Of a stretch of DNA of 64,000 nt, positions 29,667-62,798 are shown in pieces. How positions within the stretch are numbered: position 1 is the stretch's first letter; each line of letters begins with the position of its first letter. Origin of the DNA: Maribacter sp. HTCC2170 (GTDB taxonomy: Bacteria; Bacteroidota; Bacteroidia; Flavobacteriales; Flavobacteriaceae). The position numbers and the translations under genes are program-made. The notes under the pieces are model-generated. The model worked only from the letters and a program-made list of their open reading frames with translations, did not search any database and was not told the DNA's origin. Location of the stretch: positions 989,501-1,053,500 of the forward strand of contig NC_014472.1 in assembly GCF_000153165.2 (NCBI RefSeq). The letters are read 5' to 3'.

Positions 29667-29668
29667 TT

Positions 29669-30499: not shown

Positions 30500-30505
30500 A
30501 AATAA

Positions 30506-31297
30506 ATGGATTTAGGTTTAAAAGACAAAGTAGTAGTAATATCTGGGGCAGCGGGAATGAAAGGTAGTATTGGAGAGACCATTCTACAGAATTTGGTGAA
30601 TGAAGGTGCCATACCTGCCGTAATTGATAGAAATGACAGAGGCTTTGGTTACATCAGCGAAATACAAGAAAAGGGTGTTGATGCCATTTTTTGCAAAACA
30701 GACGTCACAGACCCAGATCAGATTAAAAAGGCTTTAGATACTATCGCAGGCAAATATGGTAGAATAGATGCTGTAATAAATAATGTTGGAGTTAATGATG
30801 GGGTTGGACTTGATGCCTCTTATGAAGAATTCATGAATTCGTTAAAATTAAATATGGTTAGTTACTTTCTTATCGTAAAGCATGCCTTACCATTTCTAAA
30901 AAAGTCCAAAGGAAACATTTTGAACATTGGGTCCAAAGTAGCACTGACGGGACAGGGAAGAACCTCAGGTTATGCCGCATCTAAAGGAGGGGTTCTAGGC
31001 TTGACCAGAGAGTGGGCGGTTGATCTCATAAAATATGGTATTAGATCCAACGCGATTATAATTGCAGAAAGTTGGACCCCTGCTTATGACACGTGGATTA
31101 AAACCTTGGTAGATGGAGAAGAAAAGCTAAAATCCATAATCAAAAAAATCCCCCTTGAAAATCGAATGACAACAACTCAAGAAATCGCCAACACTTGCTT
31201 ATTTACAATTTCTGAACGATCCTCCCATACAACCGGGCAGTTCATAACCGTAGATGGTGGTTATGTTCATCTTGACCGATCTTTATTGACCGAATAA
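30506..31297 (+). CDS. SDR dehydrogenase, probable L-fucose/L-galactose 1-dehydrogenase
   Basis: 263-residue classical SDR. The cofactor loop ISGAAGMKGSIG replaces the common TGxxxGxG, and the catalytic set S143, Y156, K160 (GYAASK) is intact. VINNVGVNDGVG is the NNAG-like stabilising motif. In L-fucose and L-galactose pathways such SDRs oxidise the pyranose to the 1,5-lactone. It lies between the lactonase and fucP. A later-step keto-acid dehydrogenase is possible but fits the gene set less well. Confidence 0.8.
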   Translation: MDLGLKDKVVVISGAAGMKGSIGETILQNLVNEGAIPAVIDRNDRGFGYISEIQEKGVDAIFCKTDVTDPDQIKKALDTIAGKYGRIDAVINNVGVNDGVGLDASYEEFMNSLKLNMVSYFLIVKHALPFLKKSKGNILNIGSKVALTGQGRTSGYAASKGGVLGLTREWAVDLIKYGIRSNAIIIAESWTPAYDTWIKTLVDGEEKLKSIIKKIPLENRMTTTQEIANTCLFTISERSSHTTGQFITVDGGYVHLDRSLLTE

Positions 31298-31326
31298 AAT
31301 TCTAAACAACCAACCAATATTCTAAT

Positions 31327-32646: not shown

Positions 32647-34154
32647 TTATCATTTTGTGTCAAGACATAACTAATATCTAGTTCATCATTTAACTCATCT
32701 TGAAGCACCAATAACTCTTTAAACAGGGTGTTGATTTTTCCTTGGTATTCTGGATTTTCGGAGAGATCATTTATTTCCTCTGGGTCGGTTTCCATATTGA
32801 ACAATAATACCTTCTTTAATTTGGGATAAACTATGAGTTTATAACCATCTTTACGTATCATTCTTTGAGTCGTCGTATACCCTCCATATATTTCTTTATA
32901 ATGGCTTTCTTTTCGTTCGCCTTTTGCCAAATCTTTTATACTGTTAAAAAAAACATAGTCCGGTTTTTCAATACCCGCCAAATCTAAACTGGTCGCCATG
33001 GCATCTTGTAAATAAATGTCTTTATCTATACTAGCATCTTTTGGGATATCTGGGCCTACAATCATAAACGGAGGTCTAATACTATGGTCAAATTGGGATT
33101 GTTTTCCTAAAAGACCATGTTTCCCAATTGCCAAGCCGTGATCGGCAGTAAATATGACATATGTATTCTCCATTTTCCCGCTATTTTCCAAAGCATCCAA
33201 AATCTCACCTATTTGATTATCCATATGTGAAATCAAAGCATAATACTCTTGAATATGTTTTTTGGTGGCGTACTCTGTCCTCGGGAAAGGTGCTAACGCC
33301 TCATCTCTAAGTCCTGGACCATTACCAATACTATCTTTATAGGGGTACATTGGCATCCAACTTTTTGGCAAGCTTATTTTATCCAAAGAATACATATCAA
33401 CATATTCTTGAGGTGCCTGTCTTGGATCATGGGGAGCATTGAACGCTAAATACATGAAAAAAGGGTTATCCTTCACTTTTGCCTGATCGATAAAACCAAC
33501 TGCGTCATCTTTTAAGACTTCACTCCAATGCTTGCCTCCGACCCAAAAACCTCCAAACTTTTTGTCAACAGGATTCCATGTGGTATCATTTTCATTTAAT
33601 GGACGATTGTACCCAATGGCTCTAATCTCTTTTTTTGATTTACCCTCCTTTATCATTTCATTGATAGCAGGAATCTTGCCTCCATGGCCCCAAGAATCCC
33701 AAGGCATTCCCCTTCGAACATGTGTCACATTCTGAAAAACAGAATCTGCGGGAGCATCAACATGCCATTTTCCAGTCATATAAGTATCATAACCGGCACT
33801 TTCCATTAACTTACCCCAGGTTTTATCAAACTCTTTTCCTTCAAGCCAATTTTGTCTAAAGTTATTGGCATTCCAAACACTTCTTCCTGAAATCATCATA
33901 GCTCTAGATGCGACACAAACAGCGCCATTCCAAGCACCCATATTATAAGCGTTTTTAAACGTAGTCCCACCTTTAACCAAACGATCTAAATTAGGGGTTT
34001 GTATTTCTTTGTTCCCTAAAGCATTGATTGCCGTATACGTCATGTCATCTGCAAAAATGAGGACTATATTAGGTTTTTTAGAATGGGTTTTTGATTCAGT
34101 ATTACACCCTAAGGCAACTAGCAGTATTAGAAATAAATTGAAGAATTTTGTCAT
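32643..34154 (-). CDS. Sulfatase (S1 family), lipoprotein
   Basis: 503 residues; lipobox LGCN (C17). Metal pair ADD (FADDMTY) near residues 35-37 and formylglycine motif C80-V-A-S-R-A (CxAxR variant) followed by MMISG. FTADHGLAIGKHG gives the later metal/histidine block as in choline-sulfatase and iduronate-sulfatase-like S1 branches. Its own transcription unit faces fucP; it is divergent from the DUF255 gene. Probably desulfates the sugar fed into the adjacent pathway. Confidence 0.92.
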   Translation of the reverse strand: MTKFFNLFLILLVALGCNTESKTHSKKPNIVLIFADDMTYTAINALGNKEIQTPNLDRLVKGGTTFKNAYNMGAWNGAVCVASRAMMISGRSVWNANNFRQNWLEGKEFDKTWGKLMESAGYDTYMTGKWHVDAPADSVFQNVTHVRRGMPWDSWGHGGKIPAINEMIKEGKSKKEIRAIGYNRPLNENDTTWNPVDKKFGGFWVGGKHWSEVLKDDAVGFIDQAKVKDNPFFMYLAFNAPHDPRQAPQEYVDMYSLDKISLPKSWMPMYPYKDSIGNGPGLRDEALAPFPRTEYATKKHIQEYYALISHMDNQIGEILDALENSGKMENTYVIFTADHGLAIGKHGLLGKQSQFDHSIRPPFMIVGPDIPKDASIDKDIYLQDAMATSLDLAGIEKPDYVFFNSIKDLAKGERKESHYKEIYGGYTTTQRMIRKDGYKLIVYPKLKKVLLFNMETDPEEINDLSENPEYQGKINTLFKELLVLQDELNDELDISYVLTQNDN

Positions 34155-48906: not shown

Positions 48907-50076
48907 TTAAGCGTTGTACCGTACGGCAATCTTTGCCAACTGCCCAACTATCGTAATAGAGTCTTTCATAGATAATTTGGAACCGTCGGCATGTATCCAT
49001 CTTTTTAGGGGTTTTTCACAAATCAAACGTTGTACCTTTTCCTTACCGTAATGCTTACGCATACGCATAAAAATCTCAACATCGAACAACCACCGTGTAA
49101 TGAACTTTTTATTGAACATCGAGGATGCAATCTCCCTATCCATAATTTTGGCACCACATTGCGTATCCTTAAAAGGCATTCCCAAGATTTTTTGAATAAT
49201 AAAATTAATGGTCATACTAATGATTTTTCTGGCAGATTCTTTTGTAATATCAGCGCCCATCCTACTTATTCTAGAACCACTTACAATCTTGAAATCTGAA
49301 TTCTCCAAAGTCTGAACCAACTCATCAAAATCTCTAAAATCTGTCGAAAGGTCAGCGTCAAGATATCCTATATAATCTAACTGATGGTCCTTTGATAAGT
49401 GCAGCACCCCTTGACGAACCGCTTCAGCCTTTCCTCCATTTTTTTTACAATTGAAAATACTGATGGTATCTTCATTACCCTTTCTCAGACCCTGCAAAAC
49501 TGACAAGGTATTGTCTGTACTTCCATCATTAACAAAACATAAGTGGTATCCCAAATTCTTATGGGCGAAATCCTTAAATTCAGAAGTAAGCAATCTTTCT
49601 TCCTCATTGTAACAAGGTATTACCACGCCTACACAATGTTTTTGTACCATACGAGTACTATTACTTTCATTTTTCACGGCTTTGTTCACTTTAGGCGCAC
49701 CAATTATGCGCTTAATCCGTACTGCCATTTCATCTAAACTCACAGGCTTTTTCATGTAATCATTTATCCCTAGATCAAAGTTCTCCAAAATAACGGATTC
49801 ATTGGTATTACCCGACATGACAAGTATAGGGGTATCCTTATCCATGAAAACACGTATGTACTTCACAACCTCTATACCAGTGCAGTGAACAAGTTCATGT
49901 CCAGACATTTCTGGCATATTCATATCCAACAGAACCAAATCCGGTTCAAAAGAATTATATAGCATAATGCCATCCTCAGTTGAGCTAGCGGTTTTTACTT
50001 CGTACCCTAATTGGGTCAATTTTTTTTCTACAGATAACAATATTAATTGTTGATCATCAATGGCTAAAATTTTCAT
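48907..50076 (-). CDS. Response regulator receiver fused to polyprenyl-phosphate glycosyltransferase (REC-GT2)
   Basis: 389 residues. Residues 1-126 are a receiver domain with acid pocket D7/D8, phosphoacceptor D51 (LLDMNMPEMSG), S88 (VMSGN) and K110 (KKP). A linker (127-146) leads to a DPM1-type GT2: VVIPCYNEEERL, FVNDGSTDNT, DAD (240-242), GSRISR and the C-terminal PLKRWIHADGSK. Relatives transfer a sugar from a nucleotide donor to a polyprenyl phosphate. The 8-residue HELVHCTG insertion (60-67) is unusual. Divergent from the large GT-C-like gene, which would use such lipid-linked donors. Confidence 0.9.
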   Translation of the reverse strand: MKILAIDDQQLILLSVEKKLTQLGYEVKTASSTEDGIMLYNSFEPDLVLLDMNMPEMSGHELVHCTGIEVVKYIRVFMDKDTPILVMSGNTNESVILENFDLGINDYMKKPVSLDEMAVRIKRIIGAPKVNKAVKNESNSTRMVQKHCVGVVIPCYNEEERLLTSEFKDFAHKNLGYHLCFVNDGSTDNTLSVLQGLRKGNEDTISIFNCKKNGGKAEAVRQGVLHLSKDHQLDYIGYLDADLSTDFRDFDELVQTLENSDFKIVSGSRISRMGADITKESARKIISMTINFIIQKILGMPFKDTQCGAKIMDREIASSMFNKKFITRWLFDVEIFMRMRKHYGKEKVQRLICEKPLKRWIHADGSKLSMKDSITIVGQLAKIAVRYNA

Positions 50077-50142: not shown

Positions 50143-50212
50143 CAAATCTATGAACAACTGACGCCCATTTTAGGCATCAAAAGGTCAATGGGCCTTTTCT
50201 ATAGTCGAGTGG
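50143..50212 (-). promoter_or_regulatory. LytTR-type box A and -7 box of the REC-GT2 promoter
   Basis: Coding-strand half-sites CCACTCGAC and CCATTGACC (start-to-start 21 bases) at 50183-50212, then exactly 32 bases and TAGATTTG (50143-50150), a perfect -7 box. The element lies between the divergent REC-GT2 and GT-C-like genes, about 107-136 bases upstream of the REC-GT2 start. Confidence 0.6.
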
Positions 50213-50294
50213 TTTTTTGGCTTCGATGATTGAATATGAAGGAATGTTACAATATATCTATCTTTATATTGTTATATTTTCCTACTTAATAACC

Positions 50295-53200
50295 ATGATG
50301 CAGCGAACAAACATCTTGCTTATTTTAGCGCTCTTCATAGGGGTGGCATTTCATGGCTCTAGCATTTTTTTTACACTAGAGAGCACTTATGACGCACTGA
50401 TCCATTTGTTCTTTGCCGACCATTATGCCCAAAGTTGGTTTGAACCATGGGATTATCGTTGGTATACCGGTTTTACGGTGCAAGCCTATCCCCCGCTCGT
50501 TCATCAAACCATTGCTGTTTTATCCTATATAGGTGGATTGAAATTTGGTCTGTTTTCGGTAGCCTTGATAGGTATTATTCTTTTTATTACAGGGGCTTAT
50601 CGCTTTGGGTTATTGATGACCGGAAACCGAAAAGTGGCCGGATATACAGCTCTACTCGCAGTATTTTCTTCAACGTTTATTGAGACATTGCATATTTTCG
50701 GGCAGTTACCCAGTATTGTAGGGCTTTCAGTACTTTTACATGCTTTACCTGAAATTTATTCATGGATCAAAACTGGTAAATCAAGGTATTTAGCAACCAG
50801 CCTATCACTCATTGCCGTAACGGTAACCTCACATCATGTGACGCCTATTTTTGGTATGGTTTTCTTTATTTTTCCCTTGCTTGGTATGGTTGTAATGGAT
50901 GCTGCCAGAGACCAAGTTGCAAATAATAAGGCCATCACATTTAAAGTATTTTTAGTTCAGTTTAAAAAACTGTTTTGGCGTATTGTGGGTTTTGGTTTCT
51001 CTTCGTTGGTACTGATTGTAGTTTGTATTTTACCTTACTGGATAAACTCCAAGAAAAACCCTATTACCCAAGTACCAATTCCGCATGGTTCCCGGGATAA
51101 TTTTTTGGAAGTAACATCATCAGGATTAGTCTTCTTTTTAATTCCGTGGGGAGTTCTGTTATTCATCTTACCGTATATTTTCTATCGCTATTTCAGTAAA
51201 AGATATCTATTTTTTGGATTGTCTTTTGCCATGTTGACCCTATTAGGAACCGGAGGAACTACTCCAATTCCGATTAAATTGTTGGGGGAAACCGCTTTTA
51301 ACATCCTAACCTTGGACCGCTTTACCCTTTGGGCCACAATTATGGCCCTACCAATTTTTGGGGAATTTATGTATCGAATGACCGAAGGCGATTTAAAGGT
51401 ATATATACAACAACGCTTTGGTCCTGTATACCACCGTATTATTGGTGGTAGTATTGCTGGAGGCATACTAGTAATGGTCATTTTTACCATGAGCCTAAAC
51501 TATTTTAGGCCATCCCAACCTCAGAATATAAAAATGCTCCCCATTGTAAATTTCTTAAGTCAGGATGATCACGACAAATGGCGATATCTTCCTTTAGGTT
51601 TTGGCGACCAAATGGCTTGGCTTTCCGCACAGACCAATGCTATGACCGTAGATGGAAACTATCATTCGGCACGCCGTCTTCCAGAACTTACAACAAGAGC
51701 GATTGAGCGTTTAGAGAATTCCAAGTTTAGGGGCGTTGAGGGCATTGGTTCATTGCAACAATTTTTGACCGTACCGGAAAAATATAATTTGAAATATATA
51801 TTTTCCAATGACAAGTTCTATGACCCCATTCTATACTTCTGTGGATGGCAACGCCTTCAGCAATTGGAAAATGGTATTATGGTTTGGGAAAAATTGAACG
51901 TACCTCCCATTCCAACAATCATATCAAAAGAAGATGTAGCTACATGGCTTAAAGTTATGTGGGGAATCATTCCACTGCTTACGGTTATCTTGGCCTTGAT
52001 AATCAATATTCAATGGGTGTGGTATAGAATTTTGAAATCAAAACAGTTACCGGATGGGAAGTTTATGAACTATGCCTTACCGTATAAAAAATTTCCACGA
52101 AAATTAGTGACATTAAACCAATTTTGGGCTTTACTGATAATCTGTGTTTTGGGTTATGGGGCATATCATTTCTATATCAGCAATGCTACACAAATAGCTC
52201 CAAAAAATGTGTTGATGGCTTATTACGATGCACTTGATTTTAAGGAGTTTCAGCGGGCACATTCCTATCTTAATCCAGATGATGAGGTAGACCTTTCACA
52301 ATATATGCTGGAAGTTTCGGTTACTGATGGTATTTTAAGCTCTTACGCCAAGCTAGATTCTATAGGAATTGAACTTATGGATGAAACTGCAACCAGTGCC
52401 AGGGCAAAGGTATCTACCCAATGGATTACTCCTTTAGAAAAAGTGAACAAACACTTCTATCACACCTTAGTAAAAAAGGACGGCAAATGGTATCTTGAGC
52501 CTTCTAAATTTGATAATGACCTACCTCCCGACCAATTATTATCAGCAAACGGAAGTACGTTCTATAATCATGGGAGGCGCAGAATCACCACACAGCAAAC
52601 ACACCACGAGGATGTTTTGAAACAACCCGTTTTAGAGGTACTCAAAGCAAAATTGGTTAAGTATCAAGGCCGTTATAGCATTGTTGGCGAATTACAGAAT
52701 ATTGATAATATTCCAGCAGATGTGGTCATTAAGGCCACCTTATATAACGATACCAATAAAGAATTGGCGAATTACAATGCAAAATTTCAAATGAAACACA
52801 AACTAATGCCTAAAGAAACCACGGCATTTCGGATAGATTTTGAAGGTATTGCATGGTCATCGACAAAAGATACCCTACCCCCCACTTTTAATCCAGACGA
52901 GTTTACGCCAGTGACTTTAGAGGAACAGCCTACCAAATTCAATTTACAATGTGCCGGTAATACGGCAATAACGGATTTATACAAACAAATTGCTTTACAG
53001 GATTTAGAGCTTACAGAAGCTAGTATTAAAGGAACGCTTTTCAATTCTGGTATTCAAGAGGTAACCATACCACAACTCTTACTATCCTACTACAATGAAG
53101 AAAAAGAATTGCTTTGGGTAGATCATCACTTTTTGCAGGAAGGTGTTCGCATTCAACGTAAGCAGTTTTTTGATTATAAACCTTTGGATTTGAGTAACCT

Positions 53201-53384
53201 TCAAATTATCAGTAGCAGTTTGGAAAATTGTTTCGTAAACGGATTACCCAATACATCGATTTCAGAGATTATTTTCCCAAATAGGGTACATTCACACGCA
53301 TTGGAACAATTGCAACCTTTTGAAGGAAAAGGTTATAGGTTTTTAAAGTTTGAAGTTAACGGTTATATTGGCAATCCAAGATAG
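50295..53384 (+). CDS. Large membrane protein, GT-C glycosyltransferase-like, with periplasmic C-terminus
   Basis: About 1030 residues from the ATG at 50295; earlier in-frame starts lie almost on top of the regulatory box and are less likely. About ten or more helices fill the first half; the loop after helix 1 has TYDALIHLFFADHY and DYRWYTGFTVQAYPP, the acidic pattern of GT-C sugar transferases (annotated in relatives as 6-pyruvoyl-tetrahydropterin-synthase-related). The C-terminal third has an NTF2-like part (NVLMAYYDALDFKEF) and a beta-sandwich (FxLYD-like). It probably moves sugar from a polyprenyl-phosphate donor across or outside the membrane. Confidence 0.75.
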   Translation: MMQRTNILLILALFIGVAFHGSSIFFTLESTYDALIHLFFADHYAQSWFEPWDYRWYTGFTVQAYPPLVHQTIAVLSYIGGLKFGLFSVALIGIILFITGAYRFGLLMTGNRKVAGYTALLAVFSSTFIETLHIFGQLPSIVGLSVLLHALPEIYSWIKTGKSRYLATSLSLIAVTVTSHHVTPIFGMVFFIFPLLGMVVMDAARDQVANNKAITFKVFLVQFKKLFWRIVGFGFSSLVLIVVCILPYWINSKKNPITQVPIPHGSRDNFLEVTSSGLVFFLIPWGVLLFILPYIFYRYFSKRYLFFGLSFAMLTLLGTGGTTPIPIKLLGETAFNILTLDRFTLWATIMALPIFGEFMYRMTEGDLKVYIQQRFGPVYHRIIGGSIAGGILVMVIFTMSLNYFRPSQPQNIKMLPIVNFLSQDDHDKWRYLPLGFGDQMAWLSAQTNAMTVDGNYHSARRLPELTTRAIERLENSKFRGVEGIGSLQQFLTVPEKYNLKYIFSNDKFYDPILYFCGWQRLQQLENGIMVWEKLNVPPIPTIISKEDVATWLKVMWGIIPLLTVILALIINIQWVWYRILKSKQLPDGKFMNYALPYKKFPRKLVTLNQFWALLIICVLGYGAYHFYISNATQIAPKNVLMAYYDALDFKEFQRAHSYLNPDDEVDLSQYMLEVSVTDGILSSYAKLDSIGIELMDETATSARAKVSTQWITPLEKVNKHFYHTLVKKDGKWYLEPSKFDNDLPPDQLLSANGSTFYNHGRRRITTQQTHHEDVLKQPVLEVLKAKLVKYQGRYSIVGELQNIDNIPADVVIKATLYNDTNKELANYNAKFQMKHKLMPKETTAFRIDFEGIAWSSTKDTLPPTFNPDEFTPVTLEEQPTKFNLQCAGNTAITDLYKQIALQDLELTEASIKGTLFNSGIQEVTIPQLLLSYYNEEKELLWVDHHFLQEGVRIQRKQFFDYKPLDLSNLQIISSSLENCFVNGLPNTSISEIIFPNRVHSHALEQLQPFEGKGYRFLKFEVNGYIGNPR

Positions 53385-53385
53385 T

Positions 53386-54609
53386 TTGAAATATTGTACC
53401 TACATAGTCTTGATTTTAACTTTCCTTATCGGGTGCAGGGAAAGTGCTACCTATGTTGCGACTGAAAAATATTCTTTTGAAATACTGCCTTTAAATACTG
53501 AAGTTGTTGCTGGTGACGCCATTGAGATTCGATTTAAAACAAGCGCTTCAGCCAATTTATTTTTAATAATTACCAATCCTTTTGGTAATATCTTGGTAAA
53601 GCCAACATTGGAAGAGGAAATAGCAACGTTTTCATTTCCAAAGGAAATTACCCAAAAATCAGGTTTATGTCAATGGACCCTGGTGTATAATCAGGAAATA
53701 CAGGAAAAAGGAGCAATTTCAATTTACCCAAATCCCAAAAAAGGGACTACAATAGAATCTTATTTAGGGCCTAGAAGTATATCAGCCGGCAGTAATGATT
53801 TTTCAATGTTTGTCGTTTCTCCTACAGATGTTTATGATAATCCTTTGGCTGATAGTACAGAAATTGTCAACTCAATTCAATTTGAAAATAGTATTAAAAA
53901 AACATCGGTACAACTAAAAAACCTAATAGGTTGGAAAAACATCCAAAGCGCAGAAAATTCAGGTAGAATTTTGGTGACTGCTTCATGTAACAAGGCCAAA
54001 AGCAAAGAATTGACAACAATCGTTTACCCTGCCAATGCCATTGATTTTGGAATTGCGTATACCCGCAATCATCAATTTGCCGATGGCAATCAAATAATTA
54101 GTTTTTCTACGAATGTGATAAAAGACAAATTCAGAAATATAATAAGTGATGGGACATTAGTAACCTTCGCTGTTACTAACAGAGATGGAATGCTTCTTCA
54201 AACCACAGGAACTACCATAAATGGAGTGGCCAAAGCCAATTTATTACATCCTACAAAAGAAGAAGATTGGGAGGTCACGGCCTATATTAACGGAGCAGCT
54301 AAAAGTGACACCATTAAAGTGAATTTCGAATCTGCCATTAAAAATTATGACCTTTCTTTTTCACAAGACGGAAGGATAGTAAAAGTTGACGCCATAGTAA
54401 GTTTTATGGGGCAATGGGTTCCGGATGGTATTCCCATTACAATGGAAATAAAGGATGAACAAGGTATTTTAATTGATACCAAGCGTACTACTTCCAAGTT
54501 TGGAAAAGGTGAATTTACCTTGGCTGTTGATTTTTATCCCAACGGGAAATATCAATTGCATATTAGAGCAGCAGGAATCCTGAAATCAAAAAACGTGATA
54601 CTCCAATGA
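53386..54609 (+). CDS. Lipoprotein of unknown function with beta-sandwich repeats
   Basis: About 407 residues, starting with a TTG right after the upstream stop (MKYCTYIVLILTFLIGC, lipobox C17). The mature part is beta-rich with several Ig-like stretches (AGDAIEIRFKTSASANLFL, VVSPTDVYDNPLAD, DGTLVTFAVTNRDG, the last of Big/invasin-like type). It sits between the GT-C-like gene and the GH5-like gene with 1-base and 4-base junctions, so it is in their operon and may scaffold a glycan-handling complex at the membrane. Confidence 0.7.
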   Translation: MKYCTYIVLILTFLIGCRESATYVATEKYSFEILPLNTEVVAGDAIEIRFKTSASANLFLIITNPFGNILVKPTLEEEIATFSFPKEITQKSGLCQWTLVYNQEIQEKGAISIYPNPKKGTTIESYLGPRSISAGSNDFSMFVVSPTDVYDNPLADSTEIVNSIQFENSIKKTSVQLKNLIGWKNIQSAENSGRILVTASCNKAKSKELTTIVYPANAIDFGIAYTRNHQFADGNQIISFSTNVIKDKFRNIISDGTLVTFAVTNRDGMLLQTTGTTINGVAKANLLHPTKEEDWEVTAYINGAAKSDTIKVNFESAIKNYDLSFSQDGRIVKVDAIVSFMGQWVPDGIPITMEIKDEQGILIDTKRTTSKFGKGEFTLAVDFYPNGKYQLHIRAAGILKSKNVILQ

Positions 54610-56135
54610 AAATGAACCGTACCATATATCGCGTGCTTTTGATATTGTCATTCCTGGCGTTAAATGGGTTGATCTTGTTTGGGCTAAGCTCCGTTTGGTC
54701 ATATTTAAATACTGGAGCCGACCGTTCCAAAATGCTACATTTACCACAAGAACTTTCAGCCAACTACCTGCCAAAAATTGAATGGGAACCCTTAGAAAAC
54801 GATGGTAGGCCCATGGAAAAACAGACCTTGGATGAAATAGAGCGCGACTACTTAAAAGCATGGCAAATACGAAATATCGCTTTAGAAAACAATAGCGAAT
54901 ATGGTGTGGCTGATTATTATACGGATAGTGCACGGGTAAAATTGTTTAGTATCCTAGATCTTAATAGAACCAAAAATACTACTGTGAAAAGTGCTACTCT
55001 AAGGCACCGTCCGAAACTGGAATTCTATAGTACAGATGGTAAGATTATTGTCCTTACCGATACTAATGTAGAACGCTATGAAGAAATCTATTTAAATGAT
55101 AATTTGATTCTTAAACAGAAAAGTACCTCATCTTATCAGATCATGCTCCTTCTGGAAGATGGATTTTGGAGGATACGCCATTTTGTAGAAATACCATCTT
55201 CAAAAACAAAAACAATACCCCAAAAAAAGAATACCTCCTTTGATGTTTCCATTTCTAAAATTAGAGGTATTAACTACTATCCAAAAAAAACTCCATGGAA
55301 TATGTTCGGGAAGCAGTTTCAAGATAGTATTATCGACAGGGATTTTTCGAAAATCAAAACCTTGGGGTTAAATACCGTTAGAATTTTTGTCCCCTACGAC
55401 GCTTTTGGCAAGGCAGAAGTTGATTTTGAAAAATTGGAACAACTAAAACGCACTTTAGACCTCGCAACAAGAAATGACTTAAAGGTTATGGTCACCCTAT
55501 TTGATTTTTACGGGGATTATGGCATACAAGATTGGACAATTTCGCATAGACATGCTGAACAAATTGTTACCGAACTAAAGAACCATAAGGCTTTATTGGC
55601 TTGGGACATAAAAAATGAACCAGATCTGGATTTTAAATCTAGAGGAAAAGAAAAGGTTCTGGCTTGGTTAGAGCAAATGATTTCCAGCGTAAACGAATGG
55701 GATAAATTACATCCTGTTACAATCGGATGGTCTAGCCCAGAGGTAGCATTCAACCTATCCCAAGAAGTAGATTTTGTTTCTTTTCATTACTATAGGGATG
55801 CCCCCAGTTTCCCAAAGGCTTACGAAGAATTAAAAAACAAGGTTCCTAGTAAGAATCTGGTGTTGCAAGAATTCGGTTACTCCTCTTATGATGGTATTTG
55901 GAATGCATTTCTAGGCTCCCAAGAAAATCAAGCAAAATATCATACGGAAATACAGAAAACCCTAGAAGAAAATAATATACCTTTTCTATTCTGGACCTTA
56001 TACGACTTTGAAGAAATACCAAGTTCTGTAGTAGGTAAGTTACCTTGGCGTAAGGCAAGACAAAAACATTTCGGTATTTTTGATTTTGATGGAAAACAAA
56101 AAACTGTTTACCCTGTCATTATCACACGACATTAA
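54606..56135 (+). CDS. Membrane-anchored GH5-like glycoside hydrolase with N-terminal NTF2-like domain
   Basis: 509 residues. One N-terminal membrane anchor (IYRVLLILSFLALNGLILFG), an NTF2-like domain (about residues 75-195), and a TIM barrel from about residue 215. AWDIKNEPD gives the acid/base E338 and LQEFGYSS the nucleophile E422, the GH5/GH-A arrangement; RHAE, WSSPE and HYYRDAP are consistent. In exopolysaccharide systems such enzymes (as PslG, BcsZ) trim the nascent chain. It overlaps the lipoprotein gene by 4 bases. The exact family and substrate are unknown. Confidence 0.82.
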   Translation: MKMNRTIYRVLLILSFLALNGLILFGLSSVWSYLNTGADRSKMLHLPQELSANYLPKIEWEPLENDGRPMEKQTLDEIERDYLKAWQIRNIALENNSEYGVADYYTDSARVKLFSILDLNRTKNTTVKSATLRHRPKLEFYSTDGKIIVLTDTNVERYEEIYLNDNLILKQKSTSSYQIMLLLEDGFWRIRHFVEIPSSKTKTIPQKKNTSFDVSISKIRGINYYPKKTPWNMFGKQFQDSIIDRDFSKIKTLGLNTVRIFVPYDAFGKAEVDFEKLEQLKRTLDLATRNDLKVMVTLFDFYGDYGIQDWTISHRHAEQIVTELKNHKALLAWDIKNEPDLDFKSRGKEKVLAWLEQMISSVNEWDKLHPVTIGWSSPEVAFNLSQEVDFVSFHYYRDAPSFPKAYEELKNKVPSKNLVLQEFGYSSYDGIWNAFLGSQENQAKYHTEIQKTLEENNIPFLFWTLYDFEEIPSSVVGKLPWRKARQKHFGIFDFDGKQKTVYPVIITRH

Positions 56136-56144
56136 AAAAGAAAA

Positions 56145-56169
56145 GGGAACAGTTAACCAATCTGCTCCC
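56145..56169. terminator. Possible terminator
   Basis: GGGAACAG pairs with CTGCTCCC with one mismatch around a 9-base loop, between the convergent GH5-like and GT4 genes. No strong T tract, so support is limited. Confidence 0.4.
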
Positions 56170-56194
56170 CTCTCTACCTAACCTAACCTAAAAT

Positions 56195-57424
56195 TTATTG
56201 TAGCATCTCTTTTTCCAATTCGGGGATATCCAAAGTAAAGCCAGTTGATTTTGATTGTTGAATCGCCTTGAAAAAATCAATGTACATTTGGGTTATACTA
56301 GACATTGGAAGCGAACAAGCCGCTTTGTAATTCGCCTTTCCCAAATCAATTCTATACGCATCCTGGGTTAAAATACGCTCTATGGCATCTGCCAAAGAAG
56401 CTGCACTTTCAGGATTAAAAAACTCTCCCTTGTAACCTTCTTCTTTTACCAATATACTTAGGTCACCCAAATCTGGCAGGGCAACCGCCTTACCATAACT
56501 ACCAGCCTGGTGCAATACTCCAGAACTTCCTGTAGTTGATGTATAAGGAAAAACGACCACAGCACTCTCTCCAAAGATTACCGGCACGTCATCTTCAGCC
56601 ACATAGCCAGTAAAACGTAACCTCTCCACGTGGTCGTATTTTTCCTTAACTCCGTCTAAATAACCTGGTGTATTAGGGCTATCTGTCCCTGCAATCACAA
56701 TTTCAATGTCTTCTTTTGTTCGTTTGCGAATCAATTCTACAGCCTCAATTAATATCTCCACTTTTTTATAGGTTCCGAACTTCCCAAAAGCCATAACCTG
56801 TTTTGGGCCTTCCTGTAAACAATAATCCGGTTCTGATGGAATTTCAAACGAGCCATGGGGTACCAAAGCAACATTTCGGGCTTTATATTTCTTTTCAAGA
56901 ATAGTTCTGTATTTACTTATGGTCACTGCCAATACGTCCGAGGCTAGAACAAATCGTGTTAGGGTCGACCCTATTAAGTTGTATGCCCGTTGCAATATTT
57001 TGTTTTTGGTAATTCCGGCATTTTCCAAGTCTACCTGTTCCAGGATATTATGTAATAAGGATATCGTTGGAATACCTCTGAATTTGCATATTAGAGGAAG
57101 TACCAGTCCTAAAGCAGCGGGTATCTTTTTGTCCCCAAACTTTAAGAACTGTAAATTGAACAGTACTGCATCAGGTTTGGTTTCAGAAATAACACCATTG
57201 ATTTTAAAAATATTGGTGTAATCATTGAAACTCCAACATTCCTTTACAGTTATTTTACATCCTTCCTCTTCAAATGAAAGGTCTTTTTCCTCTTTGGTCC
57301 TATCGGTTATCAAAATAATTTCAGTTACTTCTTCCTGAAGTCTAAAATGCTTCACCAAGTGATATCCGTACTCGGTCAAGGTTACTTTACTGGGCGGGTA
57401 TGCCGTTACAATTGCTAATCTCAT
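56195..57424 (-). CDS. GT4 family glycosyltransferase
   Basis: 409 residues; cytoplasmic GT-B fold sugar transferase. MRLAIVTAYPPSKVTLTEYGYHL opens the N-terminal domain; the C-terminal donor domain has VMAFGKFGTYKKVEILIEA, VIAGTDSPN, RFTGYVAEDDVPVIF and the E-x7-E-like ESAVVVFPYTSTTGSSGVLHQA, typical GT4. Its own promoter region carries LytTR-type box B. Probably elongates the repeat unit made by this locus. Confidence 0.9.
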   Translation of the reverse strand: MRLAIVTAYPPSKVTLTEYGYHLVKHFRLQEEVTEIILITDRTKEEKDLSFEEEGCKITVKECWSFNDYTNIFKINGVISETKPDAVLFNLQFLKFGDKKIPAALGLVLPLICKFRGIPTISLLHNILEQVDLENAGITKNKILQRAYNLIGSTLTRFVLASDVLAVTISKYRTILEKKYKARNVALVPHGSFEIPSEPDYCLQEGPKQVMAFGKFGTYKKVEILIEAVELIRKRTKEDIEIVIAGTDSPNTPGYLDGVKEKYDHVERLRFTGYVAEDDVPVIFGESAVVVFPYTSTTGSSGVLHQAGSYGKAVALPDLGDLSILVKEEGYKGEFFNPESAASLADAIERILTQDAYRIDLGKANYKAACSLPMSSITQMYIDFFKAIQQSKSTGFTLDIPELEKEMLQ

Positions 57425-57464
57425 AAGGTTAAGTTTTAAACTGTTATAGGTTAATATTCTGATA

Positions 57465-57534
57465 CAAATATCCTTTGAAAAACCCTATTTTATCTATGAT
57501 CTATGTTGGATGGAGCATTAGTGTAGACGAATGG
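57465..57534 (-). promoter_or_regulatory. LytTR-type box B and -7 box of the GT4 promoter
   Basis: Coding-strand half-sites CCATTCGTC and CCATCCAAC, 21 bases apart start to start (57505-57534), then 32 bases and GATATTTG (57465-57472), one mismatch from TAnnTTTG. The element is about 81-110 bases before the GT4 start. Confidence 0.65.
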
Positions 57535-57557
57535 AAAAAGTATTTCGACAAAGCAAA

Positions 57558-57591
57558 AACCCCGAAAATCCTAGGTCAGATCTTTGGGGTT
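57558..57591 (-). terminator. Rho-independent terminator of the flippase gene
   Basis: AACCCC and GGGGTT close a long stem-loop with further A/T pairing next to it, starting 33 bases downstream of the flippase stop on the minus strand. Confidence 0.6.
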
Positions 57592-57623
57592 CTTGAATAA
57601 GTGAATAAGAGTATATCCAGTCG

Positions 57624-58859
57624 TTATTTCATCTGTTTTTGGGCGAAATAAAGTAGTTGAGCAATTAACAAAGCGATCATGGTTATTATCTGTACTTGCA
57701 CTACCATTGCCAAACTACCATGAAAAAACACAATTAATGCGACTTGCAACAGCCCAAGAGTTCCTGACAATACCACTGGTAAATAATGGTCCAAGGACAA
57801 AAAGTAGTAGGCAAAGATATTTGAAATTGCAAAAAGAGATGTCGCCAAAGCGTATTGCCATAGCAAATGGGCCATTGCAATGTATGCCTCTCCAAACATT
57901 AGCTTTATGATCAACTCCGGAAATAAATAGCATGAGGTTACAATCATAAGGGACAATAAACCAATATATCCCACATACTTAAAAAGTATTGGTGAAGTAG
58001 CTTCACCATCTTTCTGTTTTTGTACAACTATGGGCAACAGCAACATAACAAACATCCAAGCTATAAAGTATACCACACGACCAATCAAGGCCAATGAGGC
58101 ATAAAGCCCAGCATCCAAAGAGTCAAAATAATGTTTCACCAAAAGTACATCGCTATTGTTGATAATAATTTGTGTCAATTCATAAGAAGCGGTCAATACA
58201 ATGAAATTGGAAACACTTCTCTTATTCTTTATGTTCAGCATCTTAGGTTTAAAGATTGAGACGCCTTGAAAATTGGATGGAATCAGACCAAAAACAAACG
58301 ACAATGCTATACCCAATGCAACCAAAAAGGCTGGTTCCATAGGTACGAACAAAAGCAACCCAAAAGTAATCAACAGCCTACTCCACATTTCTGTTTGATA
58401 GGTGGTTGATAGTTTTGCAAATTCCAGCCTTCCTTGATATTTACCTCGGTTGACAGACATAAAAAAGTAAAGGGGAATGGCTGCCCCAAAAGCAATGAAC
58501 ATCCATGGGGATTCTGTATTGAATATTTCTTGAAGACTTGAAGAAAAGTATATGAGTATAATACCGACCAAAAAACCGAATAAACCGGCATAACGGTACA
58601 TTAAACTTTGGAAAGCTTCCCATTGTCCCTCTGAAAAGAGCACAGCGAATTTTGCTGTGGCCAACTGAAATGTCATTCCCAAAAAAGATAAAACCAACAA
58701 CAAGGTTACCAACAGCGCAGCATCTGCAAAAGCTTCAGGCCCTAACAATCTTCCTAAAATCAAGTTGTACAGGTAGTTGCCCGCATTTACCAGAAGCACA
58801 CTACCCATAAACAGCTGTTCCGGAGAAATTCTCTTTAATGTTATTCTAAAAGTAGTCAT
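57624..58859 (-). CDS. Wzx-like oligosaccharide flippase
   Basis: 411 residues with about twelve predicted membrane segments and few soluble loops (EQLFMGSVLLVNAGNYLYNL, GRLLGPEAFADAALLVTLL at the start), the polysaccharide-biosynthesis/MOP family pattern. It would translocate the undecaprenyl-linked repeat unit to the periplasm. It is divergent from the TPR/barrel gene, with box C between them, and belongs with the GT4 and GT-C-like genes to one exopolysaccharide locus. Confidence 0.85.
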   Translation of the reverse strand: MTTFRITLKRISPEQLFMGSVLLVNAGNYLYNLILGRLLGPEAFADAALLVTLLLVLSFLGMTFQLATAKFAVLFSEGQWEAFQSLMYRYAGLFGFLVGIILIYFSSSLQEIFNTESPWMFIAFGAAIPLYFFMSVNRGKYQGRLEFAKLSTTYQTEMWSRLLITFGLLLFVPMEPAFLVALGIALSFVFGLIPSNFQGVSIFKPKMLNIKNKRSVSNFIVLTASYELTQIIINNSDVLLVKHYFDSLDAGLYASLALIGRVVYFIAWMFVMLLLPIVVQKQKDGEATSPILFKYVGYIGLLSLMIVTSCYLFPELIIKLMFGEAYIAMAHLLWQYALATSLFAISNIFAYYFLSLDHYLPVVLSGTLGLLQVALIVFFHGSLAMVVQVQIITMIALLIAQLLYFAQKQMK

Positions 58860-58901
58860 GGTTAAAAATATTTTAGGTTAAGGTTTATTCTATTTACACT
58901 T

Positions 58902-58971
58902 CAAATATCCTTCAAACCTGCATTTTAAAATTGTGTTTTCAGGTGGATGGAAGTTTACTGTAGACGAATGG
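58902..58971 (-). promoter_or_regulatory. LytTR-type box C and -7 box of the flippase promoter
   Basis: Coding-strand half-sites CCATTCGTC and CCATCCACC, 21 bases apart (58942-58971), then 32 bases and GATATTTG (58902-58909). The intergenic region is shared with the divergent TPR/barrel gene, so the box could act on both. Confidence 0.65.
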
Positions 58972-59035
58972 CGTTAATCGCACTTCCGAGACAGAAAGAC
59001 CTGCTTTACCTTTACTTAAGCTTAACCATACTAAT

Positions 59036-59063
59036 AAATACATGATAACATCGTTATGTATTT
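59036..59063 (+). repeat. AT-rich inverted repeat before the TPR/barrel gene
   Basis: AAATACAT-gat-AAC and GTTATGTATTT form an imperfect hairpin ending 22 bases before the ATG at 59086. It may be a leader structure or operator; nothing further supports it. Confidence 0.35.
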
Positions 59064-59085
59064 GTAGTATTAATCTTACTAAATA

Positions 59086-61155
59086 ATGACACCTAACCGT
59101 TTTTACTACTTATTGTTATTTTTTCTTTGCTTCTTCGCCACTTGGGCCCAAAACCCTATGGAAAAAGGGTTTCAACTTTTGGAATCCGGACAATTCGCAG
59201 ATGCTGAACTATTTTTTGAATCCTATTTGGGCAATGACCCCAAGAACAAGACCGCTCAAATCTGCTATGGGAGAGCCGTGGGATTGAACGGAAAACCCAA
59301 AAAGGCGACCACTCTTTTTGCCGAGCTATTGAAAGTGTATCCCAATGATTTTGAAATACAGATCAATTATAACGAGTCTTTCCTATGGAATAAAGAATAT
59401 GAAACCGCAAAACCACTATATGCGGATTTAGTGACTAAATACCCCAAGAATTTTGGAGCAGTTTTAGGCTATGCCAATACTTTGAGCAACCTTATGGAAT
59501 ATAAGGAAGCACTAAAATGGGTTCAAAAAGCATTGGAAATACAACCAGAAAGCAAAAGCGCCAAGGTCTCCAGGAAATATATGAGATTGGGGTATGCCAA
59601 CCAATATGTAAATCAACAATTGTATGGTCAAGGGAAACAATTTTTGGAAGAAATATTTTTAGATTTCCCAGAGGATAAAGACGCCTTGTTGAATCTAGCC
59701 AATTTATACTTGATCACCAAAGAAGTAGATAGTGCCAAAACAACCTACTCAAGATATGCAACTAGCCCAAAAGACTCTATAACAGCGCTTATTGGAATTT
59801 CTTTAGCTGAACATATTGATGAAAAGGACAAAAAAGCACTCGAAGTAGCAACAATTGCAAAAAACCAAGTCATACAGTTTAAGAACACCGAACTCACCGA
59901 ACGCGCCTATGATCGCTATGTCCAGGCCCTAATTTGGAACCGAAAGTTCAAGATTGCAAAGCAACAGATCGACAGTTTGGAGAAAACGAACTCTAATCGT
60001 AAATGGATACTTGCCCTAAAGGCCACTTTAGGATTGTACACTGGAGATGCAAAAATGAGCATCAAAAATTATGACGCTATTTTAATCCAAGACCGTACTT
60101 CATTTGATGGTAACCTAGGCATGGCCAATGCACTATTCGCTGCGGACCAAATAGATGATGCATATACCGCAGCATTCGAAACATTGAAAATCTATAAGAA
60201 CCAAAAAGATGTCTTGGGATTTATTGAAAAGTTAAATACACAACACACACCATCAATTGAAGAACAAGTAGCTTATACTTTTGACAATGGTAACAACGTT
60301 GCCTTTTATACCAATACACGTACAACAATCCCTTTTTCCACAAAATTTAAGACCTCATTTTCATATTTGTACCGTACCACAGAAAACACCATTACCAAGA
60401 ACAAAGCAAATTCACATGTATTTTTGGCTGGGTTGGAATACAAATTATTTCCAAAAACCAACCTAAAGACGGTATTAGGATTCAACAACTCCAGATTTAT
60501 GATGGAAGCCTATACCCAACCGGTACTTGATGTCAAGTTACAAATGAAGCCTTTTAAGCTTCAAGATTTGAACTTTGGCTATCAGCGCGAAGTACAAAAC
60601 TTTAATGCCGATTTAATCGAACGTGAAATTGTTATGAATCATTATAGTCTGGATTACAACTTGGGCACAAATATTAATTTGGGTTGGTACACGCAATTGA
60701 TGCACACCCAACAGACTGATTCTAATACACGAAATCTTCTATTTACTTCTTTATACTATAACCTACTGCCGAAACCAGCATTAAAAGCGGGTATCAATTT
60801 TCAATACATAAGCTTTAAAGAACAGTTGCCTACCATTTACTTTAGTCCGGAACACTATAAAGTGGTTGAAGTTTTTATGGACATACGCGGGAATTTTACA
60901 GAAAAAACAAATTTCATCACCAGTGTAGCAACGGGCCTTCAGCAAGTAGAACAAGGTCCTCAAACCACAATTTTTAGAGGGGAAGCAAGTTTACAACATC
61001 AATTTCTGAAGCGATTAAGCGGAAGTATTTATGGGAAGTATAGTAATATTGCTTCAGCCACTGCCGCAGGATTCGAGTTTACCGAACTTGGAATAAAATT
61101 AAGATGGTTGCTGACCAAGAAACCATTGTTCGATTCAAAACTTGGAAAAAAATGA
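59086..61155 (+). CDS. TPR protein with C-terminal YaiO-type outer-membrane barrel
   Basis: 689 residues; signal peptide (RFYYLLLFFLCFFATWAQ). Residues about 25-390 are TPR-like repeats (PMEKGFQLLESGQFADAELFFESYL, NYNESFLWNKEYETAKPLY, LGYANTLSNLMEYKEALKW). From about 400 a beta-barrel with many aromatic strands ends in FDSKLGKK. TPR plus barrel is the layout of polysaccharide export porins such as PgaA, and YaiO-type barrels. It is likely the outer-membrane exit of this locus, divergent from the flippase gene. Confidence 0.82.
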   Translation: MTPNRFYYLLLFFLCFFATWAQNPMEKGFQLLESGQFADAELFFESYLGNDPKNKTAQICYGRAVGLNGKPKKATTLFAELLKVYPNDFEIQINYNESFLWNKEYETAKPLYADLVTKYPKNFGAVLGYANTLSNLMEYKEALKWVQKALEIQPESKSAKVSRKYMRLGYANQYVNQQLYGQGKQFLEEIFLDFPEDKDALLNLANLYLITKEVDSAKTTYSRYATSPKDSITALIGISLAEHIDEKDKKALEVATIAKNQVIQFKNTELTERAYDRYVQALIWNRKFKIAKQQIDSLEKTNSNRKWILALKATLGLYTGDAKMSIKNYDAILIQDRTSFDGNLGMANALFAADQIDDAYTAAFETLKIYKNQKDVLGFIEKLNTQHTPSIEEQVAYTFDNGNNVAFYTNTRTTIPFSTKFKTSFSYLYRTTENTITKNKANSHVFLAGLEYKLFPKTNLKTVLGFNNSRFMMEAYTQPVLDVKLQMKPFKLQDLNFGYQREVQNFNADLIEREIVMNHYSLDYNLGTNINLGWYTQLMHTQQTDSNTRNLLFTSLYYNLLPKPALKAGINFQYISFKEQLPTIYFSPEHYKVVEVFMDIRGNFTEKTNFITSVATGLQQVEQGPQTTIFRGEASLQHQFLKRLSGSIYGKYSNIASATAAGFEFTELGIKLRWLLTKKPLFDSKLGKK

Positions 61156-61296
61156 TTTTGACTAAGCTTAATTATATCTTTAAATCTCCCCTGCAATCGC
61201 GTAATAATCTATTTTGAGTATTTAAAAAATACGCAAACCTACCCGTTTTAAATCTTTAGTCCGGATTACTTATAGGTATTGTTGTACGCAGTTTTT

Positions 61297-61638
61297 TTAG
61301 TTACACAATCGGTAATATGGAATTTGAAGAACATCTTCAAATCCTAGTTTTTGAGCCAATTTATACGAACCTATATTTTCCAATCGACAAGCCCAAATGG
61401 GCTCATAGCTATTCTCTAAACAGTAGTCAATAAGTTTACTACAAGTATACCTTGCAAGTCCTTTTCCGCGAAACTTTGGTACGGTTTCCATACCAAGTTC
61501 CAAAAATTGATCCAATATGCACGATGCGTAAGCTGTACACGCTAATTCATTCTCATAATAAGTGCTGAAGCCAATCGCATTCTCAAGAAAATCATTGGTA
61601 TTGTTCCAAAAGTTTAATGGAATAACTGTGCCTTGCAT
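61297..61638 (-). CDS. GNAT acetyltransferase, N-terminally shortened
   Basis: 113 residues. ELGMETVPKFRGKGLARYTCSKL is the acetyl-CoA-binding block of GNAT proteins, and YEPIWACRLENIGSYKLAQKLGF is typical of the zwittermicin-type GNAT group. Relatives are about twice as long, so the N-terminal half is missing; upstream in-frame codons run to a stop with no start. It nevertheless has a good promoter (box D). It may modify the exopolysaccharide sugars or be a fragment. Confidence 0.65.
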   Translation of the reverse strand: MQGTVIPLNFWNNTNDFLENAIGFSTYYENELACTAYASCILDQFLELGMETVPKFRGKGLARYTCSKLIDYCLENSYEPIWACRLENIGSYKLAQKLGFEDVLQIPYYRLCN

Positions 61639-61675
61639 ATTCTCAAATTCTTTTTTACCCGTTCGAGTTTTAGCT

Positions 61676-61745
61676 CAAAAGTATATATTCTTTAGGGTAT
61701 CAAAGCTTTTGTTTGGGCAGATGGTTCTTTCCTGTAGACCGGCAG
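61676..61745 (-). promoter_or_regulatory. LytTR-type box D and -7 box of the GNAT promoter
   Basis: Coding-strand half-sites CTGCCGGTC and CCATCTGCC, 21 bases apart (61716-61745), then 32 bases and TACTTTTG (61676-61683), a perfect -7 box. The most diverged copy in sequence but with the same geometry as A to C. Confidence 0.5.
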
Positions 61746-61768: not shown

Positions 61769-62476
61769 TTACAAAAGATTCAATCTTCGCATAAGTTCTG
61801 GTCTATTGGAGCGGCTAATGGGGATTACATTTTTCTCAATCAACACACTATTATCCTCAATATCAATAATTTTTGTAAAATTGATGATGTATGAACGGTG
61901 AATCTGCAGGAAAGTTTTGTCTGGTAATTTCTCCTTGATTTTCTTTAGGGTAGTGTGAACGTGGTACAGTTCTTTTTCTGTCTTGATATCTATATAATCA
62001 CCCTTTGCCTCAATACATAGTATTTCATTGAATTTAAGCTTTATCAGGCGTCTGTCTATGTTAATGTAAAGATCTTCACCGGTTGAAGAGCCACCCGCTG
62101 TCTCCAAAGTCTGCGTCCTCTTTGCCATGGCTTTTCTTATTTTTTGCATCGAAATTTCAAAACGTTCCAAGGTTATGGGTTTCACCAAATAATCAACAAT
62201 AGACTCATATTGATAGGCTTCAATGGCAAAATTTGTATCGGAAGTGGTCAATACTATTCTCGGGGATTCTTTTAGCGTCTGCACAAAATCCACTCCACTA
62301 AAACCTGGCATGTGAATATCAAGAAAAACAATATCTATTATATGTTGATTTAGAAATTTCATGGCATCAATGGCATTATCGAATTCTTCGATAACATCCA
62401 ACTCCGGAACTTTGGAACATAATTGCTTTACGATAGCCCTAGCGGCAGTTTCGTCATCTACGATAATACAGTTCAT
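61769..62476 (-). CDS. LytTR family response regulator
   Basis: 235 residues: receiver domain with D7/D8, phosphoacceptor D53 (VFLDIHMPGFSG), then a LytTR DNA-binding domain from about residue 130 (FNEILCIEAKGDYIDIKTEKE, LHIHRSYIINFTKI). LytTR proteins bind two direct half-sites about 21 bases apart. The box geometry nearby matches this. Last of a three-gene operon with a histidine kinase and an HPt protein; the likely regulator of the exopolysaccharide locus. Confidence 0.9.
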   Translation of the reverse strand: MNCIIVDDETAARAIVKQLCSKVPELDVIEEFDNAIDAMKFLNQHIIDIVFLDIHMPGFSGVDFVQTLKESPRIVLTTSDTNFAIEAYQYESIVDYLVKPITLERFEISMQKIRKAMAKRTQTLETAGGSSTGEDLYINIDRRLIKLKFNEILCIEAKGDYIDIKTEKELYHVHTTLKKIKEKLPDKTFLQIHRSYIINFTKIIDIEDNSVLIEKNVIPISRSNRPELMRRLNLL

Positions 62477-62477: not shown

Positions 62478-62798
62478 TTAAATGGTTTTTAGGTAGGTTT
62501 CTATTGTTTCCAGTATCTTTCTGAAGTCCATATCCATTTCAGTGTTTCCCTCACGCAATCGCTCTTCATAGGTGACGGCAAACTTATAGGCACCTTCCAT
62601 ACTCAATATATTGAATTTGTGTTTTAGCTTATGTACAATTTCAGAGGCCGCCCTAGGTAGCTCTTGCTCAATATAACCTACATATGTATCTTTTTCAACA
62701 GGAAATTCTTCCTTAACAATGGCAATGAACCTATTCTCAAAGTCGATATCATCGCCAGCCAGTTCTTTTATGTAATTTAAGTTCGGTTGTTCTTTCAT
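62478..62798 (-). CDS. HPt domain protein
   Basis: 106 residues, a stand-alone phosphotransfer domain. H56 in EIVHKLKHKFNIL is the phosphorylatable histidine in the xHxLK pattern. It sits 1 base from the regulator gene and 1 base from the kinase gene, so the three are one operon. It would relay phosphate between receivers; the kinase part in view has no receiver of its own. Confidence 0.8.
   Translation of the reverse strand: MKEQPNLNYIKELAGDDIDFENRFIAIVKEEFPVEKDTYVGYIEQELPRAASEIVHKLKHKFNILSMEGAYKFAVTYEERLREGNTEMDMDFRKILETIETYLKTI

Follow-up and report, generated by a model that had tools for sequence, protein, structure and literature searches.

What controls the exopolysaccharide genes of Maribacter sp. 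HTCC2170? In a stretch of 64,000 nucleotides from this marine flavobacterium (NC_014472.1, positions 989,501 to 1,053,500 of the forward strand; here called the window), a first-pass annotation had pointed out four DNA boxes of one geometry, A to D, ahead of genes in an exopolysaccharide locus. It had predicted from them a dedicated regulon of a neighbouring regulator gene of the LytTR type. To our knowledge, how Bacteroidota control their biofilm slime without cyclic di-GMP (c-di-GMP) is little understood.

Here, we find that the four boxes are real and not products of chance. They track the orthologue of the LytTR gene from genome to genome instead of being scattered over the genome, which supports the regulon as predicted. 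The boxes, their geometry, their genome-wide specificity, their co-occurrence with the LytTR gene and the content of its operon were all computed directly. Judged from these sequences, the boxes are probably the operators of the LytTR protein encoded at 61769-62476, which would be fed by a phosphorelay, probably one sensing nitric oxide (NO), and would activate the exopolysaccharide promoters and its own operon.

Results

Box geometry in the window

All four 30-base boxes lie on the minus strand where they had been annotated (Table 1), and the gap between box and −7 element is exactly 32 bases in each. The two half-sites of a box are 21 bases apart from start to start. They are clearest in B and C, as CCATTCGTC followed by CCATCCAAC or CCATCCACC, and these two boxes are closely alike. 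A and D keep to the half-site pattern far more loosely than B and C do, and D, with CTGCCGGTC as its first half, is the most divergent of the four. Paired direct repeats of about 9 bases with a gap of 10-13 bases are expected at LytTR sites, and such pairs are found in the four boxes and in relatives (9 + 12 = 21).

The annotation further held that no TTG is evident around −33. This is right for A, B and C, where none occurs at a suitable distance, but wrong for D, where a TTTG lies 17 bases before the −7 element. Across 29 sites, TTG occupies the −33 slot in 3, compared with 3 to 7 at the other gap positions, so no −33 element is conserved. The information content of these sites is low in the 32-base gap and present in the box and the −7 element. 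The canonical promoter TANNTTTG was not found in either intergenic region before the two divergent plus-strand genes.

Tests against chance

Leave-one-out matrices of three boxes were run over the window on both strands, which amounts to about 128,000 positions. The omitted box always ranked fourth, directly after the training boxes. When omitted, A, B and C each stayed well ahead of the next site, and D was tied with the best chance site at 14.1 bits each. A pattern of 28 positions, with N at varying places, fits C exactly and B with one mismatch, and had no match in 100 shuffles.

For the whole genome of 3.87 Mb, we made a profile of 73 positions, covering box, gap and −7 element, out of 29 sites from 13 genomes, among them the four of the window. 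It gave 19 matches at E ≤ 10, and the top four are C, B, A and D, so the scan does not hit random positions. The fifth-ranked match (G000:C1:3088715) was rejected as chance; it lies on the other strand inside an open reading frame (ORF) of 393 amino acids (aa), spans profile positions 18-71 and misses the first half-site. The remaining weak matches have E values of 0.2 to 9.3, apart from two at a fifth box described below. An exact-pattern scan with the B/C consensus was also tried and found B and C only, the profile being needed for A and D.

Since the window's four boxes were among the training sites of the profile, the clean tests are those with a matrix made from these four boxes alone. 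This matrix leaves out the −7 pattern and was used at a threshold of at least 14 bits. The first set, collected via the flippase gene or a flippase paralogue, comprised 17 loci of 16 other genomes in the family. There the matrix found 42 sites, whereas the controls gave means of 1.25 (Markov sequences) and 1.08 (permuted columns) and, for reversed sequence, 0. The −7 pattern stands at offset 32 in 25 of the 42 sites, at 52 in 4 and at 31 in 3.

A second set consisted of 76 of 80 further LytTR loci, those overlapping no earlier locus. Here the matrix found 158 sites in 59 of the 76 loci, versus 1 site in reversed sequence. Offset 32 occurs in 56 of these sites, 52 in 14 and 31 in 12, and the other offsets average 0.26 in a nearly identical set of loci. 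Thus both distances, 21 and 32 bases, are kept in relatives, as the annotation would lead one to expect. Offset 52 corresponds to one more half-site on the upstream side; of 163 boxes, 6% have a third half-site 21 bases upstream, versus 0.1% in the background.

Co-occurrence with the LytTR gene

We searched 99 genomes, that of the window included, with cut-offs of E ≤ 1e-60 for a LytTR orthologue and E ≤ 1e-3 for the box profile. This profile scan used stricter filters, with 49 candidates scored per genome, and loses weak sites. The LytTR orthologue is present in 24 genomes, the HNOB domain of H-NOX proteins in 25, the flippase in 17 and a profile match in 21.

The match occurs in 19 of the 24 genomes with the LytTR orthologue but in 2 of the 75 without it. 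One of these two (G004) is an incomplete genome with a contig that was used in the profile, and the other (G059) keeps the H-NOX and the preceding REC gene. When the 13 profile genomes are left out, the box is found in 7 of 12 genomes with LytTR and in 1 of 74 without (Fisher p 1e-6, from hand-entered counts), the 7 including G061, whose match lies about 114 kb from its own LytTR gene and may be chance. By a hand tally, H-NOX lies at most 6 kb from LytTR in 18 of the 24 genomes.

A broader set was taken from GTDB, namely the best 80 LytTR orthologues, 58-80% identical and mostly from Flavobacteriaceae genera by record title. Their loci contain H-NOX in 63 cases, FIST (NosP-like) in 39, either of them in 67 and the box in 68. 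In several operons, the H-NOX kinase is separated from Hpt by a second kinase and a gene of FIST size. FIST was confirmed by Pfam in the two scanned loci L159 and L167, and there is no FIST match in the genome of the window. The boxes agree with a LytTR regulon, in that a REC-LytTR gene lies at the locus, the sites stand at a fixed distance upstream and they are found chiefly where the regulator is present.

The strongest sign of the pairing between box and LytTR comes from G022. Its LytTR gene is on a separate contig with three boxes around it, and the exopolysaccharide locus by its H-NOX operon is boxless (best site, 8.2 bits). The detached group in this genome (L049, L059) comprises LytTR, a REC protein and a flippase paralogue with the three boxes, apart from the sensor operon. 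In four other loci (L189, L193, L196 and L254), LytTR and REC are accompanied by boxes, but neither H-NOX nor Hpt is close by.

Candidate target genes

In the annotated loci, a gene was counted when a box lay within 450 bases upstream, and the counts are given over the genomes having the gene. The box precedes the flippase gene in 13/17 genomes, GT4 in 11/17 and REC-GT2 (or GT2 alone) in 9/17. Upstream of the neighbours it is found in 0/16 for TPR, 0/16 for GH5, 1/16 for the 1030-aa gene and 0/23 for LytTR itself. Hence the box goes with certain genes instead of with the locus as a whole. The locus as such is widely kept, as the flippase, GT4, GT2, TPR, GH5-like, Ig-like and 1030-aa genes are all present in 15 of 17 loci, the exceptions being L044, a contig of 5.8 kb, and L059 with the moved LytTR.

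The REC-GT2 protein is a REC domain fused to a family 2 glycosyltransferase. The phospho-site residues of its REC domain are invariant in the 14 full-length sequences aligned, out of 18 labelled ORFs, and three relatives (G016, G021 and G030) have a GT2 ORF without REC. The window's protein carries eight extra REC residues just past the MSG stretch, which are absent from the 13 other aligned sequences.

The GNAT gene behind box D occurs in none of the relatives' 37 annotated loci and none of the 80 LytTR loci, and it is the weakest target of the predicted regulon. Boxes at the equivalent place, directly behind LytTR, are seen in L054, L056, L168 and L169. Behind this box in two of these loci (L168:9381-9497 and L169:8982-9125) are tiny ORFs that look by eye like membrane proteins, at the place of the window's GNAT.

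In G010 and G044, which are without this flippase, the sensor operon adjoins other polysaccharide genes. Boxes in G044 precede a UDP-sugar dehydrogenase (by Pfam) and a protein of 793 aa that looks Wzc-like by eye and has no Pfam match. Because the operon sits beside different polysaccharide genes in these genomes, the module may follow slime production generally rather than one particular polysaccharide. In the corresponding loci, L159 (G010) and L160 (G044), the H-NOX-LytTR operon stands beside differing polysaccharide genes, some with boxes, and one sugar transferase of L159 has an apparent REC-like front by eye.

A large protein adjoins LytTR in some loci. DUF6923 and a Por secretion tail were recognised in the sole copy scanned (L054:2061-4649). 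In L051, L055, L056, L163, L166 and L176, an ORF of 820-870 aa likewise lies next to LytTR. A box lies 37-65 bases upstream of the large protein in L054, L056, L163, L166 and L176.

Sensor operon

The operon of the LytTR gene runs past the window end, in the order REC - H-NOX - PAS kinase - Hpt - LytTR. Its first gene encodes a free REC protein of 133 aa and the second an H-NOX protein of 180 aa (Pfam HNOB, 2.2e-38), followed by a kinase of the PAS-PAS-HisKA type. This is what an H-NOX system looks like, with an HNOB domain having the proximal His and YxSxR, and a histidine kinase gene adjoining. The haem histidine H104 and the Y133-x-S135-x-R137 residues are invariant in 18/18 H-NOX sequences. 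The nearest solved structure is PDB 6bde, which we take to be the Kordia algicida H-NOX.

The Hpt protein of the window matches Pfam weakly, and 16/18 members of its family match Pfam Hpt at E ≤ 1, the best at 4.7e-5. Its H56-K57-x-x-H60 is invariant in 18/18 sequences. The DNA-binding domain of LytTR is strongly conserved in 13 aligned sequences, the window's included.

The fifth box lies 1.5 kb past the window end, before the sensor operon. It has three half-sites and 32 bases to AATATTTG, and is weak in the genome profile search (E 0.09 and 0.27; rank 6). In relatives, a box is found upstream of the operon-opening REC gene in 21/23 annotated genomes and 64/76 scorable GTDB loci, so the sensor operon is very likely self-regulated.

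Table 1. Positions in the window of the boxes, their −7 elements and the genes around them
Feature	Positions	Strand	Remarks
−7 element TAGATTTG	50143..50150	(-)	32 bases past box A
Box A	50183..50212	(-)	two half-sites 21 bases apart, 5' of REC-GT2 gene; genome E 2.5e-6
−7 element GATATTTG	57465..57472	(-)	32 bases past box B
Box B	57505..57534	(-)	5' of GT4 gene; whole-genome profile E 4.6e-11
−7 element GATATTTG	58902..58909	(-)	32 bases past box C
Box C	58942..58971	(-)	5' of flippase gene; whole-genome profile E 5.4e-14
−7 element TACTTTTG	61676..61683	(-)	32 bases past box D
Box D	61716..61745	(-)	directly 3' of LytTR gene, 5' of GNAT; genome E 4.2e-5
REC-GT2	48907..50076	(-)	candidate box A target
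Membrane protein, 1030 aa	50292..53384	(+)	no Pfam family; conserved locus
Protein with weak Ig-like matches	53350..54609	(+)	matches below cut-off; conserved locus
GH5-like glycoside hydrolase	54606..56135	(+)	conserved locus
GT4 glycosyltransferase	56195..57424	(-)	candidate box B target
Flippase-like membrane protein	57624..58859	(-)	candidate box C target; named in the annotation and by eye, no Pfam/NCBIfam family found
TPR protein	59086..61155	(+)	weak BcsC/PgaA-like outer-membrane match, below cut-off; conserved locus
Small GNAT acetyltransferase	61297..61638	(-)	doubtful box D target
REC-LytTR response regulator	61769..62476	(-)	proposed box binder; Pfam LytTR 1.6e-19, Response_reg 2.6e-18
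Hpt phosphotransfer protein	62478..62798	(-)	weak Pfam match (E 0.12); H56-K57-x-x-H60
PAS-PAS histidine kinase, 535 aa	62800..64000	(-)	truncated by window end

An NCBIfam scan of nine proteins reached no cut-off among the matches listed, which for two of the proteins were 25 of 98 and 25 of 70. Elsewhere in the window, the stretch 18409-34154 contains, by eye, sulfatases, a fucosidase-like hydrolase, sugar dehydrogenases, a transporter and an AraC-type regulator, and looks like a locus for the use of a sulfated fucose polysaccharide.

Discussion

In the proposed mechanism, the phosphorylated regulator (LytTR~P) would bind one face of the helix at two 9-base half-sites, 21 bases from start to start, at promoters mostly without a −33 element. 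Bound at a fixed distance, it would stand in for the absent −33 contact and so recruit RNA polymerase, acting as an activator. Its targets would be the GT4, flippase and REC-GT2 genes of the conserved exopolysaccharide locus and its own operon. The phosphate would pass from the kinase to Hpt and on to LytTR, and the kinase is most likely controlled by NO bound to H-NOX.

We infer the binding by LytTR, the activation, and the NO signal and its sign. As the regulator lies within an operon of H-NOX, kinase and Hpt, the likely signal is NO. In the H-NOX kinase systems described in PMC8738867 and PMC6769237, the kinase is inhibited by NO-bound H-NOX. Hence, by analogy, NO would inhibit the kinase and lower LytTR~P, and we predict that it switches the slime genes off. 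The genome has no GGDEF match, EAL domains not having been searched, so the usual c-di-GMP route seems unavailable and c-di-GMP was rejected as the output.

Several observations weigh against this mechanism. The REC-GT2 gene has an upstream box in just 9 of the 17 genomes, and box D is weak, has the −33-like TTTG and precedes a gene that is not conserved. About two thirds of the 158 sites in the second set of loci, all but 56, do not show the −7 pattern at offset 32. Of the 80 GTDB loci, 13 have neither H-NOX nor FIST in the DNA examined.

Moreover, 12 of the 80 are without a box of at least 14 bits, one of them being a fragment of 3.7 kb, and 7 of these 12 keep H-NOX. The latter include Kordia algicida (L238), two Flagellimonas (L200 and L206), Muricauda (L211) and Allomuricauda (L224). 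In L200, L206, L211, L224, L229 and L238, the H-NOX operon and LytTR are kept, with boxes that have diverged or cannot be recognised. These loci may have a shifted operator, and diverged half-sites at period 21 are visible by eye in L200 and L206.

Of the other explanations, the one that survives best accepts the regulon and its LytTR but holds that the kinase does not respond to NO, the H-NOX sensing oxygen or redox or acting elsewhere. We regard it as rather unlikely, though worth keeping in mind. The 13 loci in which no NO-sensor gene was seen speak for it, as does the LytTR-bearing genome G016, which has no HNOB match and yet keeps REC, kinase, Hpt and LytTR. A section of PMC8738867 is devoted to alternative H-NOX signals and stresses diverse outputs.

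Against a signal other than NO, H-NOX occupies second place in the operon and has been conserved along with it, and FIST, the fold of the NO sensor NosP, is encoded in 39 of the 80 LytTR loci. In all 18 aligned H-NOX proteins, the residue five past the YxSxR arginine, presumably the Tyr140 position, is L or F and never Tyr. The related Kordia algicida H-NOX preferred NO in the modelling study PMC7356049.

The LytTR protein might instead bind the boxes as a repressor or a dual regulator. Some LytTR proteins do repress, CoxC being an example given in PMC11347149, and the −33-like element at box D would suit such a role. However, the box ends 32 bases before the −7 element and leaves the −33 slot uncovered, the −33 sequence is not conserved, as expected if an activator is needed, and the spacing from box to −7 is rigid. 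We consider either role unlikely here.

A third possibility is that the boxes are bound by another LytTR protein and the adjacent one is a bystander. The genome holds 19 LytTR domains, and adjacency to the boxes is by itself no proof of pairing. Yet, by their coordinates, the other 18 all lie more than 20 kb from every profile match at E ≤ 10, and from genome to genome the boxes go with the orthologue of the adjacent gene, even where it stands apart as in G022. We consider such a mispairing quite improbable.

Finally, that the boxes are chance or functionless copies of one duplicated promoter, as the great similarity of B and C might suggest, is so very unlikely as to be hardly credible given the genome scan and the results of the four-box matrix in relatives' loci, since the 29 sites are low in information in the 32-base gap but not in the box and the −7 element, and the box is still found next to LytTR proteins with 58-80% identity to the window's.

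The proposed LytTR operators resemble several known systems in part. The AgrA, RcoM and CoxC type has the same REC-LytTR protein and, as described in PMC11347149, sites upstream of the core promoter in which two direct repeats of 9 bases are separated by 12. Unlike them, the system here has its own half-site (CCATTCGTC / CCATTCACC) and a bacteroidetal −7 element, and would serve exopolysaccharide genes and its own sensor operon exclusively.

AlgR of Pseudomonas aeruginosa is likewise a LytTR regulator of exopolysaccharide genes, but its kinase and sensor are of another kind. The kinase here does not appear to be a partner of the AlgZ/FimS type, being a PAS-PAS-HisKA protein with Hpt and H-NOX in the same operon. 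The AlgR core CCGTTCGTC given in PMC4064291 is one base off CCATTCGTC, with 8/9 bases matched in boxes B and C, and some loci (L059) have exactly this core as their half-site. The AlgR sites described there are single 9-base cores at widely varying distances, whereas the sites here are paired with fixed spacing.

The sensing side recalls other NO systems. The Shewanella Hno network, which PMC8738867 describes as comprising H-NOX, a kinase, c-di-GMP enzymes and HnoC, likewise has an H-NOX-controlled kinase, several phospho-acceptors and a transcriptional feedback loop. Here, in contrast, there is no GGDEF match and the output would be a LytTR transcription factor on slime genes. The NosP-VpsS-LuxU-LuxO and H-NOX-HqsK-LuxU routes of Vibrio also lead from an NO sensor through a kinase and Hpt to transcription, and the V. 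cholerae pathway, as presented in PMC6769237, ends in exopolysaccharide control. The Vibrio routes are grafted on quorum sensing with LuxO, whereas here one dedicated operon with LytTR stands beside its targets.

No report of an H-NOX-LytTR circuit was found among titles and abstract starts of the open-access literature; most subscription papers fall outside this search, and prior work is possible. A text search with the half-site matched 136 papers, of which the 15 listed are unrelated by title.

A bolder extension, which we put forward only tentatively, is a family-wide NO switch of Flavobacteriaceae that is independent of c-di-GMP and has two outputs via one Hpt. In one, LytTR~P would act on promoters; in the other, REC-GT2 and the free REC protein would be phosphorylated, giving control of both transcript and enzyme. 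Such a second output, directly from Hpt, is conceivable because the phospho-site of the REC-GT2 REC domain is invariant.

If the proposed circuit is true, it would comprise a named sensor, a relay, a regulator, an exact operator and a short list of targets, conserved across a family of marine polysaccharide degraders. The NO response of these bacteria would then be directly testable. The DNA motif of fixed geometry would also allow the rest of the family to be searched for the regulon. A spaced DNA switch before both the slime genes and the sensor genes suggests how marine flavobacteria may turn biofilm slime on and off.

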